A stretch of 37,632 nt of DNA from Candidatus Rokuibacteriota bacterium (GTDB lineage Bacteria > Methylomirabilota > Methylomirabilia > Rokubacteriales > CSP1-6): contig JACPCH010000124.1 of NCBI GenBank assembly GCA_016179875.1, positions 1-37,632 of the forward strand, written 5' to 3'. How positions within the stretch are numbered: the first letter of the stretch is position 1; each line of letters opens with the position of its first letter. Of the stretch, positions 10,042 to 33,303 are shown in pieces. The notes beneath the pieces are model-generated. The model saw nothing but the letters and a program-made list of their open reading frames with translations, had not been told where the DNA came from and searched no databases. The position numbers were made by a program, and so were the translations under genes.

Positions 10042-12633
10042 ATGGAGCTGCTCGAGCGGTTCAAGTCCCGCTATCCTTTCGCCCTCGACGACTTCCAGCT
10101 CGAAGCGATCCAGGCGATCGAGGGCGGCCAGTCGGTCATCGTGTCGGCGCCGACGGGCGCCGGCAAGACGCTCGTCGCCGAGTTCGCGATCCACGCCGCG
10201 CTCGCGTCGGGCACCCGCCTGGCGTACACCACGCCGCTCAAGGCGCTGTCGAACCAGAAGTTCGCCGACTTCACGCGCGCCTTCGGCGCCGACACGGTGG
10301 GCATCCTCACCGGCGACGTCAAGGTGAACCCCCGGGCGCGCGTGCTGGTGATGACGACCGAGATCCTCCGCAACGCGCTCTACGGCTCCGGCCTCGACGA
10401 TCTCCGCTACATCGTGCTCGACGAGTGCCACTACATGGGCGACGAGGGGCGCGGCACCGTGTGGGAGGAGATCATCGTGGCGGCGCCGAAGGACGCCCAG
10501 CTCGTCGGCCTCTCGGCCACCGTGGCCAACGTCGAGGAGATCGCCGACTGGATCTCGCTCGTGCACCGGCCGATCGTCCCGATCTTCCACCCCGACCGGC
10601 CGGTGCCGCTCGCCTACGCGGTGGCCGACCTCGCGGCGGAGATCCACGCGCTCGACGCCGTGCGGGCGGGGCGCGCCCGGCTGGTGGGCGACGAGTCGCG
10701 CGGCCCCGACGCGCGCGGGCGCTGGTACCCGCGCCGCGTGGCCGACCCCGCGGCGCTCATCGACGCGCTGGCCGCGCGCGGCTGGCTGCCGGCGATCTAC
10801 TTCATCTTCAGCCGCGCCGGCTGCGAGCGCGCGCTGCAGGACGTGCTGGCCGAGGGCCGGAGCCTGCTCGCCCGCGCCCAGCAGGGCGAGGTGGACGGCG
10901 CGATCCGCGAGCTGCTCGCCGAGAGCCCGGCGGCCGGCGAGTCGTCGCTGAACCAGTCGGTGTTCGAGGCGCTGCGCCTCGGCGCGGGCCTCCACCACGC
11001 GGGCATCCTGCCGGGCGTCAAGCGCCTGATCGAGGTCCTGTTCGAGCGCGGGCTGTGCAAGGTCGTCTTCGCGACGGAGACGATGGCGCTCGGCATCCAC
11101 ATGCCGGCGCGGAGCGTGGTCCTCCAGAGCCTCACCAAGCGCACCGACCGCGGCTTCCGCTCGCTCTCGCACAACGAGCTGACGCAGATGGCGGGCCGCG
11201 CCGGGCGCCGCGGCATCGACCCCGAGGGCACCTGCGTCGTCGCGCTCGACGCCCGCGACGGCCTCGAGGGCGTGCTCCACGTGATCGACGGCGCCCCGGA
11301 GCCGATCGAGAGCCGCTTCAAGCTCGGCTACGGCTCGGTGGCGCTCCTGCTCGGCACCGGCGCCGAGCCCGAGGTGCTGCGGCGGCGGATCGAGTCGTCG
11401 TTCGGCCAGTACCAGAACCTGAAGCGCATCCGCGAGATGGACGCGGAGGTCGCGCGGCTGACCGGGCAGCGCGACGAGGCGCGACGGTACGAGGCGCCGT
11501 GCGGCGACTTCCCGCGCATCGGCCGCTACCGCCGGGCGCGCCAGGAGGTCGACGCCCGCCGCCAGGCGCTCGGGCGCGGGGCGCGGCGCGGCGAGCGGCC
11601 GGTCGCCGAGGCCGAGCCGGGGCGGCTCGCCCTCGTCCGGCGCAAGGGCGCGCCGAGCCTCGCGATGCTGCTGAGCGTCCACTCGATCCGCGGTCACCGG
11701 GTGCTGGTGGACGCGCTCCTGCCCCACGGCGCGGTGGTGCGGCTCAAGAGCGCGGCGATCAAGCGCGTGTTCTGGGCGACGCCGGCGCTCCACGTGCCGC
11801 GCGACCTCCACCGCGGGCACGGACGGGGCCTCGGCCACCTGGCCGGCGAGCTCGAGCGGCTCTCGGTGCCGGAGCTGCTCGAGCGCGAGCGCGCGCAGGG
11901 GCCCGAGGCGGCGCTGGCGGCGATCGAGTGTCACCGCTGCCCCTGGGGCGCGACCTCGCGCTGCGAGCGCGCCTGGCGCGACGTCGAGGCCACCGGCGAG
12001 CGCCTCCAGGGGCGCCGCGGGCAGCTCGAGGCCTTCCGCGGCGCCTACTGGCAGGAGTTCCTGCGCGTGGTGGAGGTGCTCGAGCAGTTCGGGGCCGTGC
12101 GTGACCGGCGCCTCGAAGCGAAGGGGCGGCTCATCGCGGGCCTGCGCCACGACAACGAGCTGCTGGTGGCCGAGTGCGTCGCCCGCGGCGTGTTCGCGGA
12201 CCTCACGGCGGCGGAGGCGGCGGCGGTCTGCTCGGCGCTCATCGAGGAGGCCCGCTCGGGCGAGCCCAACGTCGCGCGGCTCTTCCTGCGCAAGCGGCCG
12301 AAGCTCAGGCGCAAGCTCGACCAGCTCCTGGCCGTCGCCGACACCGTCCACGAGGCCCAGCGCTCGCGGCACCTCCGGATGCCCGTCGGCGTGCACCCGG
12401 GGTTCATGCCCGCGGTGCTCCGCTGGGCGTCGGGCGAGGACGACTGGACCGGGATCGTCGAGGACTCGTTCGGCGGCCACGAGGGCGACTTGATCCGCGC
12501 GATGCGCCGGCTCATCGACCTCCTGCGCCAGCTCGCCGAGAGCGCGGAAGTGCCGGCGGAGACGGCGCGGCTCCTGGCGCAGGTCGCGCGGGTCGTGGAT
12601 CGCGGCATCGTGCTGGAGTCGGCCCTGATATGA
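10042..12633 (+). CDS. Ski2/Mtr4-like DEAD/DEAH-box superfamily II helicase with DSHCT-like C-terminus
   Basis: SAPTGAGKTLVAEFA (Walker A), DECHYMGDEGRG, LSATVANVEE, QMAGRAGRRGID; C-terminal LIAGLRHDNELLVAECVARGVFADLTAAEAAAVCSALI. Confidence 0.92.
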   Translation: MELLERFKSRYPFALDDFQLEAIQAIEGGQSVIVSAPTGAGKTLVAEFAIHAALASGTRLAYTTPLKALSNQKFADFTRAFGADTVGILTGDVKVNPRARVLVMTTEILRNALYGSGLDDLRYIVLDECHYMGDEGRGTVWEEIIVAAPKDAQLVGLSATVANVEEIADWISLVHRPIVPIFHPDRPVPLAYAVADLAAEIHALDAVRAGRARLVGDESRGPDARGRWYPRRVADPAALIDALAARGWLPAIYFIFSRAGCERALQDVLAEGRSLLARAQQGEVDGAIRELLAESPAAGESSLNQSVFEALRLGAGLHHAGILPGVKRLIEVLFERGLCKVVFATETMALGIHMPARSVVLQSLTKRTDRGFRSLSHNELTQMAGRAGRRGIDPEGTCVVALDARDGLEGVLHVIDGAPEPIESRFKLGYGSVALLLGTGAEPEVLRRRIESSFGQYQNLKRIREMDAEVARLTGQRDEARRYEAPCGDFPRIGRYRRARQEVDARRQALGRGARRGERPVAEAEPGRLALVRRKGAPSLAMLLSVHSIRGHRVLVDALLPHGAVVRLKSAAIKRVFWATPALHVPRDLHRGHGRGLGHLAGELERLSVPELLERERAQGPEAALAAIECHRCPWGATSRCERAWRDVEATGERLQGRRGQLEAFRGAYWQEFLRVVEVLEQFGAVRDRRLEAKGRLIAGLRHDNELLVAECVARGVFADLTAAEAAAVCSALIEEARSGEPNVARLFLRKRPKLRRKLDQLLAVADTVHEAQRSRHLRMPVGVHPGFMPAVLRWASGEDDWTGIVEDSFGGHEGDLIRAMRRLIDLLRQLAESAEVPAETARLLAQVARVVDRGIVLESALI

Positions 12634-13130
12634 TGCGGGGCGTGCGGACCGCCACGCTCGCCGTCGCGACGCTCGCCGTCCTGCTCGCCGCCTGCGCCAC
12701 GATGCGCGGCGGGGTCGAGCAGCGGACGGCGCAGGGGCCGGTGGCCGAGGACGTGTGGGGCTACGCGGTGCTGGAATCGACCGGGCGCACGCCGAGCTTC
12801 GACGAGCGCCGCCACTGGGACAACCAGATGGACCAGAAGATCTCCGACTACCTCCGGGCCCATCCCGAGTTCGCCAACTCGCTCGAGATCGCGGCCTTCC
12901 GCTTCAATCGCCGGGTCACCATGGGCATGACCAAGGAGCTGGTGCTGCTCCTGCTCGGGCCGCCGCTGGTCGCGACCACGGAGCCGGCGCGGATGGAGGA
13001 GCTGGCGCGCCGGTACTGGCCGGCGATCAAGGCCGCCGGCGCGACGGAGGCGTGGGCGTACCCGCTCGGCTGGCGGATCTACTTCAAGGACACCCGCGTG
13101 GTGGACATCACCCAGTACCTCATCAGGTGA
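12630..13130 (+). CDS. Hypothetical lipoprotein
   Basis: MMRGVRTATLAVATLAVLLAACATMRGG (lipobox LLAAC), 166 aa, overlaps helicase stop. Confidence 0.7.
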   Translation: MMRGVRTATLAVATLAVLLAACATMRGGVEQRTAQGPVAEDVWGYAVLESTGRTPSFDERRHWDNQMDQKISDYLRAHPEFANSLEIAAFRFNRRVTMGMTKELVLLLLGPPLVATTEPARMEELARRYWPAIKAAGATEAWAYPLGWRIYFKDTRVVDITQYLIR

Positions 13131-13158: not shown

Positions 13159-14814
13159 GTGATCGAGTCCCGGCTCGTCGTGACCAAGGAGACGCCGCTC
13201 GCGCCGCGGGGGATGGTCGCGGCCGAGCATCCGGCCGGCGCGCGCGTGGGCGCCGCCGTGCTCGAGGACGGCGGCAACGCGGTGGACGCCGCCGTGGCCG
13301 CCGCCTTCGCGATGACCGTCGTCGAGCCCTTCATGTCCAGCATCGCCGGCGCCGGCACGATGCTCGTGTACCTGGCCGAGCGGGGCGAGTGCGTGGCGCT
13401 CGACTTCAACGGCGCGGCGCCGGCGCGCGCCCACGCGGCGATGTGGCGGATCACCGGCGGCGTCTCCGGCGGGCTCTTCGCCTGGCCGTGCGTGGAGGGC
13501 GCGGCCAACGAGCACGGTCACCTCTCGGTGGCCGTGCCCGGGTCGCTGGCGGGCCTGGCGCTCGCGCTCGAGCGCTTCGGCACGCTGAGCCTCGCCGACG
13601 CGCTCGCGCCGGCGATCGCGCTCGCGCGCGAGGGCTTCGTGCCGGACTGGTACCAGGCGCTCACGACCGCCCGCCACCTCGATGAGCTGGCGGCGGCTCC
13701 CGAGGCGGCGCGGATGTACCTGCGCGACGGGCACGCGATCCACCGGCCGCCGTCCATGGACGAGGGCGACCGCGTCCGGTACCCGGACCTCGCCCGGAGC
13801 CTCGAGCTGATCGCGCGGGAGGGGCCGGACGCCTTCTACCGCGGCGCGCTCGCGCAGGCGATCCACGAGGACATGGCGGCTCACGGCGGGCTCCTCACGC
13901 GGGAGGACCTCGCGGCCTACGAGGTGCACGTGGAGGCGCCGCTGACGGGGCGCTACCGCGACCTCGACCTCGCGTTCTCGCCGGGCGCGACCGGCGGGAT
14001 CACGGCGCTCGCCATCCTGAACATCCTCGACCAGCTCCCCCCGAGCCAGGCCGGCTGGCAGACGACCGGCGGGCTCCACTTCCGCGCCGAGGCCGTGCGG
14101 CGCGCCTTTCGCGACCGCCTGGCGCTCCTCGGCGATCCGCGGCACGTCGCGGCGCCGTGGGAGCGGCTGGCGTCCCCGGCGTACGCGACGGCGGTCGCCG
14201 CCGAGCTCCGGCGGGCCGGGAGCGCGGGCGGCCCGGGCCCGGCCGCCGCCGGCGCCGCCGACTGCACCACGCACGTCTCGGTGGTGGACCGGCGGCGCAA
14301 CATGGTGGCGCTCACCCACACCGCGGTCTCGATCTTCGGCTCGCGCGTCGTCGTGCCCGGCACCGGCATCCTGCTGAACAACGGCATGATCTGGTTCGAT
14401 CCGGAGCCCGGCAAGCCGAACTCGGTCGGGCCGGGCAAGCGCGCGCTCGTCAACATGGTGCCGGTCCTCGCCTTCCGCCGGGGCGCGCCGCACCTCACGC
14501 TCGGCGCCCCCGGCGGGCGCCGGATCGTGTCGGCGATCCCGCAGGTCGTCGCCACGCTCGTGGACGGCGCGCCGTCGCTCCAGGCGGCGATCGAGGCGCC
14601 GCGCCTGCACACCGAGGGCGGCGAGCTGCTCGTGGACGACCGGGTGGGGGAGGGGGCGCTGGCGGGGCTGGCGCGGCTCGGCCACCAGGTCGTGGCGCGG
14701 CACGAGACGTACGCCAGCATGAACTTCGCCAAGCCGGTGGGGGTGCGGGTCACCGCGCAGGGGCTCGAGGCCGGGCTCGACCCCTTGCGTCCCGCCGCCG
14801 CGGCCGGATACTAG
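13159..14814 (+). CDS. ggt: Gamma-glutamyltransferase (Ntn-hydrolase)
   Basis: AAEHPAGARVGAAVLEDGGNAVDAAVAAAFAMTVVEPFMSSIAGAGTMLVY; CTTHVSVVDRRRNMVALTHT (catalytic Thr region); GILLNNGMIWFDPEPGKPNSV. Confidence 0.92.
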   Translation: MIESRLVVTKETPLAPRGMVAAEHPAGARVGAAVLEDGGNAVDAAVAAAFAMTVVEPFMSSIAGAGTMLVYLAERGECVALDFNGAAPARAHAAMWRITGGVSGGLFAWPCVEGAANEHGHLSVAVPGSLAGLALALERFGTLSLADALAPAIALAREGFVPDWYQALTTARHLDELAAAPEAARMYLRDGHAIHRPPSMDEGDRVRYPDLARSLELIAREGPDAFYRGALAQAIHEDMAAHGGLLTREDLAAYEVHVEAPLTGRYRDLDLAFSPGATGGITALAILNILDQLPPSQAGWQTTGGLHFRAEAVRRAFRDRLALLGDPRHVAAPWERLASPAYATAVAAELRRAGSAGGPGPAAAGAADCTTHVSVVDRRRNMVALTHTAVSIFGSRVVVPGTGILLNNGMIWFDPEPGKPNSVGPGKRALVNMVPVLAFRRGAPHLTLGAPGGRRIVSAIPQVVATLVDGAPSLQAAIEAPRLHTEGGELLVDDRVGEGALAGLARLGHQVVARHETYASMNFAKPVGVRVTAQGLEAGLDPLRPAAAAGY

Positions 14815-14846
14815 GCACACCCGTGCTCAACGAGGAGGGTCACCGC

Positions 14847-15107
14847 ATGGCCGAGCTCGAGGAAAAAGTCATCGCGAGCTGGAAGTACCGGAAGGGCGCG
14901 CTCGACCCGAAGACCGCGTTCCTCTGCTACCTGGCGGCGAACCTCGCCGCCGGCAACACCCACTGAGCGAAGCGCGACCTGGCAGGTGCCAGGGCATCGG
15001 GCGCGAGCGAAGACGAGGTGCGCGAGGCGATCAGCTTCGCGATCCGCGCCAACGCGGCGAAGACGCACGCGGACATCCTGCAGGTGTACGCCGATGGCGG
15101 ACGTTAG
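14847..15107 (+). CDS. Probable selenoprotein, CMD/AhpD-like (86 aa, Sec40 encoded by TGA 14964-14966)
   Basis: Read through the TGA: MAELEEKVIASWKYRKGALDPKTAFLCYLAANLAAGNTHUAKRDLAGARASGASEDEVREAISFAIRANAAKTHADILQVYADGGR*. In-frame, CMD-like continuation after TGA; SD GAGGAGGGT upstream; hairpin CCTGGC-AGGT-GCCAGG downstream of the TGA. Confidence 0.8.
14978..14993 (+). promoter_or_regulatory. Candidate bacterial SECIS apical hairpin for the selenoprotein at 14847
   Basis: CCTGGC (14978-14983) / loop AGGT / GCCAGG (14988-14993): perfect 6-bp stem; loop starts 17 nt after the TGA and has G at position 2. Confidence 0.7.
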
Positions 15108-15405
15108 CCTCACCGCGGCGTTCTCCACGGTCCCCGCGGCCGAGGCCGAGGAGATCAAGCGGGTGCTCGTCGAGACCGTCGAGCAGCTCGCGCGCGACGA
15201 CGGCGCGTTCACGCGGGCCAAGCTCGTCTTCACCGAGTCCGACGAGCGGTGCGGGCTCACCGCGGAGCTCGACGGCGTCAAGAAGGAAGGCGTCCCGCTC
15301 CAGCTCGACCTCGATCAGCTCGAGGACGCCAAGACCTCGGCGGGGGCGCGCGCCCAGCTCAAGGAGGCGCTCCGGCTGTACTTCCGGAAGGTCCTTGGCC
15401 GGTAG
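15094..15405 (+). CDS. Hypothetical protein, 103 aa, overlapping the end of the upstream selenoprotein gene
   Basis: MADVSLTAAFSTVPAAEAEEIKRVLVETVEQLARDDGAFTRAKLVFTESDERCGLTAELDG...; 14-nt overlap suggests translational coupling. Confidence 0.6.
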   Translation: MADVSLTAAFSTVPAAEAEEIKRVLVETVEQLARDDGAFTRAKLVFTESDERCGLTAELDGVKKEGVPLQLDLDQLEDAKTSAGARAQLKEALRLYFRKVLGR

Positions 15406-16099
15406 CGACGAGGGCCTGCTCCTCTTCGCCTGGCGCGGCTGCGTCTTCCGCGTCCCGGACGGCGTCCAGCCGCCGAAGGGCGGCTCGCTCTTCTTCTGCC
15501 GCCACCTCGCCGCGCGCCCGGGCGAGCGCGTCCTCGAGCTCGGCGCCGGCCTCGGGCTCGGCGCGGTGCTCCTGGCCCGGCAGGGCGCGGCGGTCGTGGC
15601 GACCGACGTGGTCCCCGCCGCGGTGGAGGCGGTCCGGCTGAACGCGCTCCTCAACGGCGTGACGGTGGACGCGCGGCTCGGCGACTGCTACGCCCCCGTC
15701 GCCGGCGAGCGCTTCGACCTCGTCTGCACGAACCCGCCGCAGATGCCGACGCCGCCCGGCCGCGGGCGGGACGACGCCGCGGCCGCCGCCGACAACGGCG
15801 GCGCCGACGGCTGGGCGCTCCTGGACCGGGTGATCGCGGGCGCGCGCGGCCATCTCCGGCCGGGCGGGCGGCTCGTGTTCACGATCTTCGCGTTCCTCGG
15901 GCGCGAGACCGCGTACGCCAGGCTCGAGGCCGCCGGGCTGGTCCCGTCGATCGTCGCCCGCGAGACCCAGCCGTTCCCGCGCATCGGCTACGAGCGGCTC
16001 GAGCACATCCGCGCCGTGGAGCCCGAGGCCACGGTGCCCGCCACCGGCGTGCCGGCCACGGTCGAGCGCTTCGTCGTCCAGGGCGCGCTCCCGGCCTGA
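15395..16099 (+). CDS. Methyltransferase (HemK/PrmC-like small-domain MTase)
   Basis: VLELGAGLGLGAVLLARQGAAVVATDVVPAAVEAVRLNALLNGV...FDLVCTNPPQMPTPPG (NPPQ motif). Confidence 0.82.
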   Translation: MAGSDEGLLLFAWRGCVFRVPDGVQPPKGGSLFFCRHLAARPGERVLELGAGLGLGAVLLARQGAAVVATDVVPAAVEAVRLNALLNGVTVDARLGDCYAPVAGERFDLVCTNPPQMPTPPGRGRDDAAAAADNGGADGWALLDRVIAGARGHLRPGGRLVFTIFAFLGRETAYARLEAAGLVPSIVARETQPFPRIGYERLEHIRAVEPEATVPATGVPATVERFVVQGALPA

Positions 16100-16106
16100 G
16101 ACGCCC

Positions 16107-16850
16107 GTGACCCGGCGCCTCATCGTCAACGCCGACGACTTCGGGCTCACCCGCGGCGTGAGCGCCGGGATCCTCGCGGCCTGGCGCCACGGTATCGTGA
16201 CGAGCGCGACCCTGCTCGCGACGATTGTGGTCGAGGATGACCTGCTGAGCGCGGCGCGCGACGCGGGCCTGGGCCTCGGCCTTCACGTGAACCTCACGCT
16301 CGGGCGGCCGCTGTCCGGGCGGAGCTCGCTCACCGGCGCCGACGGCCGCTTCGTCCGCGACGCGCGGCGCGCCGCGGCCAGGGCCGCGGCCGCCGACGTC
16401 GAGCGCGAGCTCGAGGCCCAGCTCGACCGCTTCGCGGCGCTGGTCGGCCGCGCGCCCACGCACCTCGACACGCACCACCACGTCGGCCTGCACGAGCCGG
16501 TGGCCGGCGTCGTGCTGGCCGCCGCGCGCCGCTTCGGCCTGGCGGTGCGGAGCCAGAACGCCGCGGCTCGCGCGCGCGCCCGCGCGGCCGGGCTCCGGAC
16601 GCCGGACCACTTCTTCGGCGAGTCGGGGCCCGGCGCCTACTGGACGCCGGCGACGACGCGCGCGCGCCTGGCGGCGCTGCCGCCGGGCGTGTCGGAGTTC
16701 ATGGCGCATCCCGGCTGGTACGACGCCGGCCTCGCCGGGAGCCGCTACGGGCGCCAGCGCGAGACCGAGCTGGTCGGGCTCGGCACGCCCGCCGCGCGCG
16801 CGACGGCCGCCGCGCTCGGCATCCGGCTCTGCCACTTCGGCGACCTGTAG
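16107..16850 (+). CDS. ChbG/HpnK family (YdjC-like) deacetylase
   Basis: RRLIVNADDFGLTRGVSAGILAAWRHGIVTSATLLAT...GLHVNLTLGRPLS...PTHLDTHHHVGLHEPV...EFMAHPGWYD. Confidence 0.9.
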   Translation: MTRRLIVNADDFGLTRGVSAGILAAWRHGIVTSATLLATIVVEDDLLSAARDAGLGLGLHVNLTLGRPLSGRSSLTGADGRFVRDARRAAARAAAADVERELEAQLDRFAALVGRAPTHLDTHHHVGLHEPVAGVVLAAARRFGLAVRSQNAAARARARAAGLRTPDHFFGESGPGAYWTPATTRARLAALPPGVSEFMAHPGWYDAGLAGSRYGRQRETELVGLGTPAARATAAALGIRLCHFGDL

Positions 16851-32658: not shown

Positions 32659-33303
32659 ATGGCGCAGCGCATCCGCGGGATCGGCGACGACGAGGCGGCG
32701 GGGGAGGTCCGCGAGGTCTTCGAGGCCTCCACCGAGATGCTCGGGCGGGTGGCGAACCTCGTGCGCATCCTGGCCCACAGCCCGGGCGTCGCCCGGTGGT
32801 TCCTGCCGCTCGTCGTCGCCGTCCGCCAACCGAGCGCCGGCGCCGTGTCCGACGTCCGGCTGCGGAACCTGGCCATCCTGAGGACCTCGATCCTGAACGG
32901 CTGCCGCTACTGAACCGAGCACAACCTCGTGCTCGGTCGAGCACTCGGACTGACCGACGCCGAGTTCGCGGCGCTCGAGGGCGACTGGCGGGCGAGCTCC
33001 CTCTTCGACGCGCGCGCGAAGGCCGTGCTCGGCTGGGCCGAGGCGATGACGCTGAACACCGCCCGGGGGGACGACGGGGCGTGGAGCGAGCTGCGGCGGC
33101 ACTTCGGCGACGCCGAGATCGTCGAGCTGTCGATGGCGACGGCGCTCTTCAACATGATCAACCGGCTGAACGACTCGTTCCGGACGGAGCTCGAGCCCGA
33201 GGAGTACAACCGGCGGCAGCACAAGGCGGTCGGCGTGACGGCGCGCGCCCTGGTGGCGTACGCCTGCCGCATCTGCGGGACGCCGGCTCCGGCCGGCCCG
33301 TGA
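32659..33303 (+). CDS. Probable selenoprotein, CMD/AhpD-like (214 aa, Sec85 encoded by TGA 32911-32913, CxxU motif)
   Basis: MAQRIRGIGDDEAAGEVREVFEAS...RLRNLAILRTSILNGCRYUTEHNLVLGRALGLTDAEFAALEGDWRASSLFDARAKAVLGWAEAMTLN...; TGA is exactly in frame between two CMD-like halves, giving C-R-Y-U-T-E-H where the family has CxxCxxH. Confidence 0.87.
32929..32944 (+). promoter_or_regulatory. Candidate bacterial SECIS apical hairpin for the selenoprotein at 32659
   Basis: GTGCTC (32929-32934) / loop GGTC / GAGCAC (32939-32944): perfect 6-bp stem; loop starts 21 nt after the TGA and begins with GG. Confidence 0.7.

Follow-up and report, generated by a model that had tools for sequence, protein, structure and literature searches.

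An 86-residue CMD/AhpD-fold protein of Rokubacteria predicted to carry selenocysteine in an NxxU motif

The relay of AhpD comprises Glu118, Cys130, His132, Cys133 and His137 (PMC3141380), with the cysteines in a CxxC pair. TTHA0727 of Thermus thermophilus (PDB 2cwq), a 137-aa protein of the CMD family, has SxxC, with a single Cys at the second of these positions; it has been reported as a hexamer of unknown function and judged to lack peroxidase activity (PMC3141380). A 2026 inventory covering 119 selenoprotein families of prokaryotes lists selenocysteine (Sec) forms of AhpD/CMD as CxxU only, and it treats a domain that recurs with another Sec motif as a separate subfamily (PMC13188914). NF041047 (distant AhpD homolog / GSU3128 family (seleno)protein) is CMD-like, ~84 aa long and has Sec at the second position of its CxxU motif (PMC13188914). 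The ArsM/AhpD and MduS selenoproteins (NF041537, NF045649) carry CxxU in an AhpD domain fused to a methyltransferase.

Here we analyzed a gene in a 37,632-nt stretch of DNA (the window) from a member of the Rokubacteria, a soil lineage. In its tiny 86-residue product, a redox-type site that normally needs a Cys pair would carry one Sec. The protein resembles NF041047 in length, fold and Sec position, but its family has NxxU or TxxU with an invariant Cys27 in place of CxxU. Unlike the methyltransferase fusions, whose AhpD domains give the best NCBIfam profile similarity, it is free-standing. Under the rule of the inventory, the NxxU motif makes this form a new AhpD/CMD selenoprotein subfamily, by comparison with the families listed there, and not a new kind of system. 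The window protein scores 37.2 bits against NF041047, below the curated cut-off of 110, and 15 of 15 scanned members match that model. No model in NCBIfam release 20 (June 2026) scores the family above its cut-off, so automatic annotation may truncate the protein at the UGA.

The gene and its surroundings are given in Table 1. The start codon (ATG 14847), Shine-Dalgarno site, in-frame TGA, terminal stop (TAG, 15105–15107) and hairpin of the original prediction are all present where it placed them. The hairpin reads CCTGGC (14978–14983), AGGT, GCCAGG (14988–14993), with the loop 17 nt from the UGA. With the UGA read through, the product is MAELEEKVIASWKYRKGALDPKTAFLCYLAANLAAGNTHUAKRDLAGARASGASEDEVREAISFAIRANAAKTHADILQVYADGGR.

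Table 1. Features of the locus, in window coordinates; neighbor counts were taken over 30 loci, some of which are cut short.
Feature	Position	Strand	Remarks
Lipoprotein-like gene upstream of ggt	12633..13130	+	recurrent neighbor, 26/30 loci; no Pfam family
Gamma-glutamyltransferase (TIGR00066) gene ggt, upstream	13159..14814	+	recurrent neighbor, 20/30 loci
Shine-Dalgarno GAGGAGGGT	14832..14840	+	from sequence; GGAGG-type sites also 5' of several orthologue starts
Gene of the predicted 86-aa selenoprotein (CMD/AhpD fold; N37-T38-H39-U40 motif)	14847..15107	+	
Cys27 codon (invariant residue; candidate for the alternative thiol)	14925..14927	+	Cys in 40/40
In-frame UGA, predicted Sec40 (codon 40)	14964..14966	+	TGA in 41/41 orthologous loci
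SECIS upper hairpin, 6-bp stem, AGGU loop	14978..14993	+	11 nt after UGA
103-aa neighbor gene, invariant Cys53, HPF/RaiA-like predicted fold	15094..15405	+	start overlaps selenoprotein gene by 14 nt
HemK2/MTQ2-family protein methyltransferase gene	15395..16099	+	recurrent neighbor, 29/30 loci
YdjC-like gene	16107..16850	+	recurrent neighbor, 28/30 loci

Across 95 genomes of the phylum Methylomirabilota, a search gave 41 orthologous loci. They come from 40 genomes, each of which belongs to the same family as the window. Codon 40 is TGA in every one of these loci and Cys in none, and in all of them the reading frame runs on for 43–47 codons beyond the UGA. Judged by this comparison of sequences, such retention with a continued frame is far beyond chance. 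Mean pairwise dN/dS is 0.107 on the 5' side of the UGA and 0.106 on the 3' side, and coding constraint is thus kept after position 14966. A scan of 84,980 GTDB genomes returned 24 loci, a set that overlaps in part with the 41 above; these were in Rokubacteria alone, with TGA at codon 40 in all. The peptide patterns used in that scan assumed Cys at codon 40, which would have favored finding a Cys version. The same single scan (GTDB r220), which reaches close relatives only, gave no relatives beyond the phylum, and tblastn against plasmids gave no match. Reassignment of UGA to Trp was also considered and rejected: the terminal stop of the same gene is TGA in nine of the 41 orthologues, which excludes it. 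Taken with the conserved SECIS hairpin, these results bear out the prediction of a selenoprotein, and it is nearly certain on comparative grounds that 14847–15107 makes a Sec-containing protein. Two assemblies hold the gene in two copies, G090 (contigs C51 and C99) and G081 (C205 and C346), the second copy of G081 ending at a contig edge.

The hairpin is conserved along with the TGA. In its codons (44–49) dS is 0.16, compared with 0.78 in the stretch before the UGA and 0.55 in the whole stretch after it, a roughly four-fold reduction in synonymous change. Arg49 is encoded by AGG in 40 of 40 sequences, a codon used for 6% of Arg residues in the rest of these genes; Ala46 uses only GCA or GCG, and Asp44, Leu45 and Ala48 each have a single codon. 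Published bSECIS criteria are a stem of 4–16 bp, a loop of 3–9 nt with G in the first two positions, a spacing of 16–37 nt and an MFE ≤ −7.5 (PMC13188914). The hairpin agrees with every one, having 6 bp, an AGGU loop with G at position 2, the 17-nt distance and an MFE of −18.8 kcal/mol (computed on a 43-nt stretch). Its loop and 11-nt spacing are the same as those of the E. coli fdhF SECIS, where the UGA-to-hairpin spacing is 11 nt (PMC8659212); a check of the fdhF sequence found it in 5,368 genomes. In comparison with a sister family that has the motif CTSU, the stem occupies identical columns, and two of its pairs differ at both bases (C-G/U-A and G-C/C-G). The stem covariation is 0.345 compared with 0.131 for shuffles, with 99.4% of cells paired, and each of the two covarying pairs may represent one event between two clades. 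Single-sequence folding was not significant (z about −1.5), and the case for a SECIS element, drawn from aligned sequences, is one of conservation and not of folding energy. An Rfam search with the window and the hairpin returned no family.

The genome to which the window belongs is 77% complete. It contains selD, itself with an in-frame TGA, while selA, selB and tRNA-Sec were not found in it. This absence is what would favor reading the UGA as a true stop, a pseudogene lesion or a sequencing error that leaves a 39-aa peptide. However, among the 95 genomes of the phylum tRNA-Sec is found in 79 and SelB scores above its cut-off in 84, and a missing contig is a simple reason for the gap, since all three congeners carry selB and tRNA-Sec ~3 kb apart on one contig. 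The TGA retained at all loci in 40 genomes, the dN/dS downstream of it, the synonymous constraint and covariation of the SECIS, and the TGA-containing selD of the same genome all stand against a terminating UGA. That reading is contradicted by the comparative data and, as far as these go, is extremely improbable.

Besides the window gene, the genome has at least two other selenoprotein-type genes with a TGA, one at 32659 and a CTSU paralogue on contig C21, and selD adds another. The first of these (32659–33303, +) is a CRYU selenoprotein candidate whose UGA (32911–32913) is directly followed by ACCGAGCAC-AACCTC-GTGCTCGGT, a hairpin whose loop breaks the G-in-loop bSECIS rule. Its nearest models are NF053654 (68 bits, cut-off 310) and TIGR01926. 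The CTSU paralogue (locus L002, C21:1797–2003, −) belongs to a CxxU family of ~40 copies in the phylum, with TGA in all, whose nearest model is again NF041047 (51 bits, below the cut-off of 110). The CTSU paralogues of Methylomirabilota share with the window protein the fold, the Sec column and a SECIS at the same place with a covarying stem. They differ in having Cys at position 37, no Cys27 and another SECIS stem and loop sequence, and they form a clade separate from the NTHU group, which is itself one clade (98/94 support). Genus g7 (G048–G056) has kept SelB, and tRNA-Sec in most members, and is without NTHU and CTSU selenoproteins. Elsewhere in the phylum, a CMD-like gene (L114, G038:C330:6897–7076, +) has two in-frame TGA codons in a GULPU (UxxU) motif, with a SECIS-like GCTTCGC-AGTT-GCGAAGC after the second; NF041537 is closest (61 bits, cut-off 510).

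The description of the protein as CMD-like agrees with its profile match, its predicted structure and its structural neighbors. It matches Pfam CMD (PF02627) at 2.2e-9 (37.6 bits, gathering score 23). An AlphaFold2 model built with 47 related sequences has a pLDDT of 94.7, with strands at 5–9 and 12–16, helices at 21–35, 38–50 and 55–84, and U40 at the start of the helix 38–50. The top 49 Foldseek matches in the PDB are all CMD/AhpD proteins, with probabilities up to 1.00; their E-values are weak (≥ 0.05), which probably reflects the shortness of the query. M. tuberculosis AhpD (PDB 1gu9) shares the helical hairpin, with a Foldseek rmsd of 1.1 across 52 columns, and its His132 and Cys133 occupy the positions of H39 and U40. 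Its CxxC pair and its relay residues Glu118 and His137 are not kept in the window protein. By sequence, the best PDB match is TTHA0727 (7e-6), which has its single Cys at the U40 column and thus provides a precedent for a lone thiol there.

As had been proposed from the window alone, Asn at position 37 replaces the first Cys of CxxC or CxxU, and Sec is the sole redox residue of the motif. This Asn is present in 39 of 40 orthologues, with Thr once. The proposal of a lone Sec holds for the motif but not for the whole protein: it overlooked Cys27, which is invariant and the only invariant Cys (the other Cys in the aligned part, Cys25, occurs in a single orthologue). Helix spacing in the predicted model suggests that Cys27 and Sec40 are apart within one subunit. 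The assignment of U40 to the 'resolving' Cys position is not established, and that of Arg43, three residues after U40, to the usual His was made in the wrong column. The relay His of AhpD is at Cys133+4, and mapping by ungapped spacing places it (His137) at the invariant Asp44 and Glu118 at the variable position 25. His39, absent from the original prediction, is invariant and aligns with AhpD His132.

We tentatively favor, at somewhat short of an even chance, a one-selenol peroxidase or reductase that is resolved by another thiol, a reading drawn from the fold, the Sec at the place of Cys133 and general selenoprotein chemistry. Sec40 would follow His39 at the point where the second helix of the conserved hairpin begins. 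Acting alone, its selenolate would reduce either a hydroperoxide or a disulfide and pass into an oxidised selenium intermediate. Because the motif has no partner Cys, a thiol from elsewhere would have to reduce this intermediate; the candidates are Cys27 (of the same or a neighboring subunit), Cys53 of the 103-aa protein encoded downstream, or a small thiol. In outline, this would be a 1-Cys-peroxiredoxin-type cycle on an AhpD-type scaffold. Against it count the apparent loss from the sequence of the two AhpD relay residues, Glu118 and His137, the non-peroxidase verdict on TTHA0727, the nearest solved relative with the second Cys alone (PMC3141380), the likely separation of Cys27 and Sec40 within a subunit, and the lack of selA, selB and tRNA-Sec in the incomplete genome. 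With Sec in 41 of 41 loci and never the first Cys, the clade offers a way to test if one selenol can stand in for a dithiol active site on the CMD fold.

In one of two main alternatives, Sec40 would serve as a nucleophile or a soft-metal or metalloid ligand with no peroxidase role. Fusions of a CMD-like domain to an arsenite methyltransferase (NF041537, NF045649) may be a parallel case. Their AhpD-like domains give the best NCBIfam matches, found in 15 of 15 scanned members, but the scores are far under the family cut-offs. Moreover, no arsenic or comparable methyl-transfer gene was identified beside the selenoprotein gene, where the recurrent neighbors are ggt, the 103-aa gene, the HemK2/MTQ2 methyltransferase and YdjC. 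We regard such a role as unlikely.

The selenoprotein locus also brings to notice a conserved, uncharacterised neighbor, the 103-aa protein. In 35 of 41 loci its gene either overlaps the end of the selenoprotein gene, by 14 nt at most, or begins no more than 22 nt past that gene's stop; a match to its profile at locus L066 was spurious and was left out of the count. The protein carries FTESDERCGLTAELDG, with Cys53 invariant in the aligned orthologues, and belongs to no Pfam, NCBIfam or PHROGs family. Its predicted model (pLDDT 89.6) draws Foldseek matches that are mostly HPF/RaiA/YfiA proteins, at a marginal level (E 1.6e-3, TM 0.4–0.5), and this likeness is without sequence support. The tight gene arrangement, the invariant Cys53 and these matches would fit the other main alternative for Sec40, not as a peroxidase centre but as half of a 1:1 redox pair with the 103-aa protein, in which a Cys53–Sec40 selenenylsulfide forms a selenium-dependent switch or sensor, possibly related to the ribosome. 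The weak HPF match argues against such a pair, and so does the distribution of the 103-aa gene. It is found in 55 of 95 genomes, restricted to the window's order (Rokubacteriales). All nine g7 genomes have it in the absence of the selenoprotein, as do members of other families in this order; it therefore does not depend on the selenoprotein. A redox pair of this kind seems to us improbable. A combined scheme, decidedly more speculative and very unlikely, would have a one-selenol CMD-fold selenoenzyme with its second thiol moved to Cys27 or to Cys53 of an HPF-like partner, giving selenium-dependent redox control of a possible ribosome-hibernation factor. In several genomes without the selenoprotein, the 103-aa gene directly follows ggt, an order that would fit either removal of the selenoprotein gene or its never having entered the locus.
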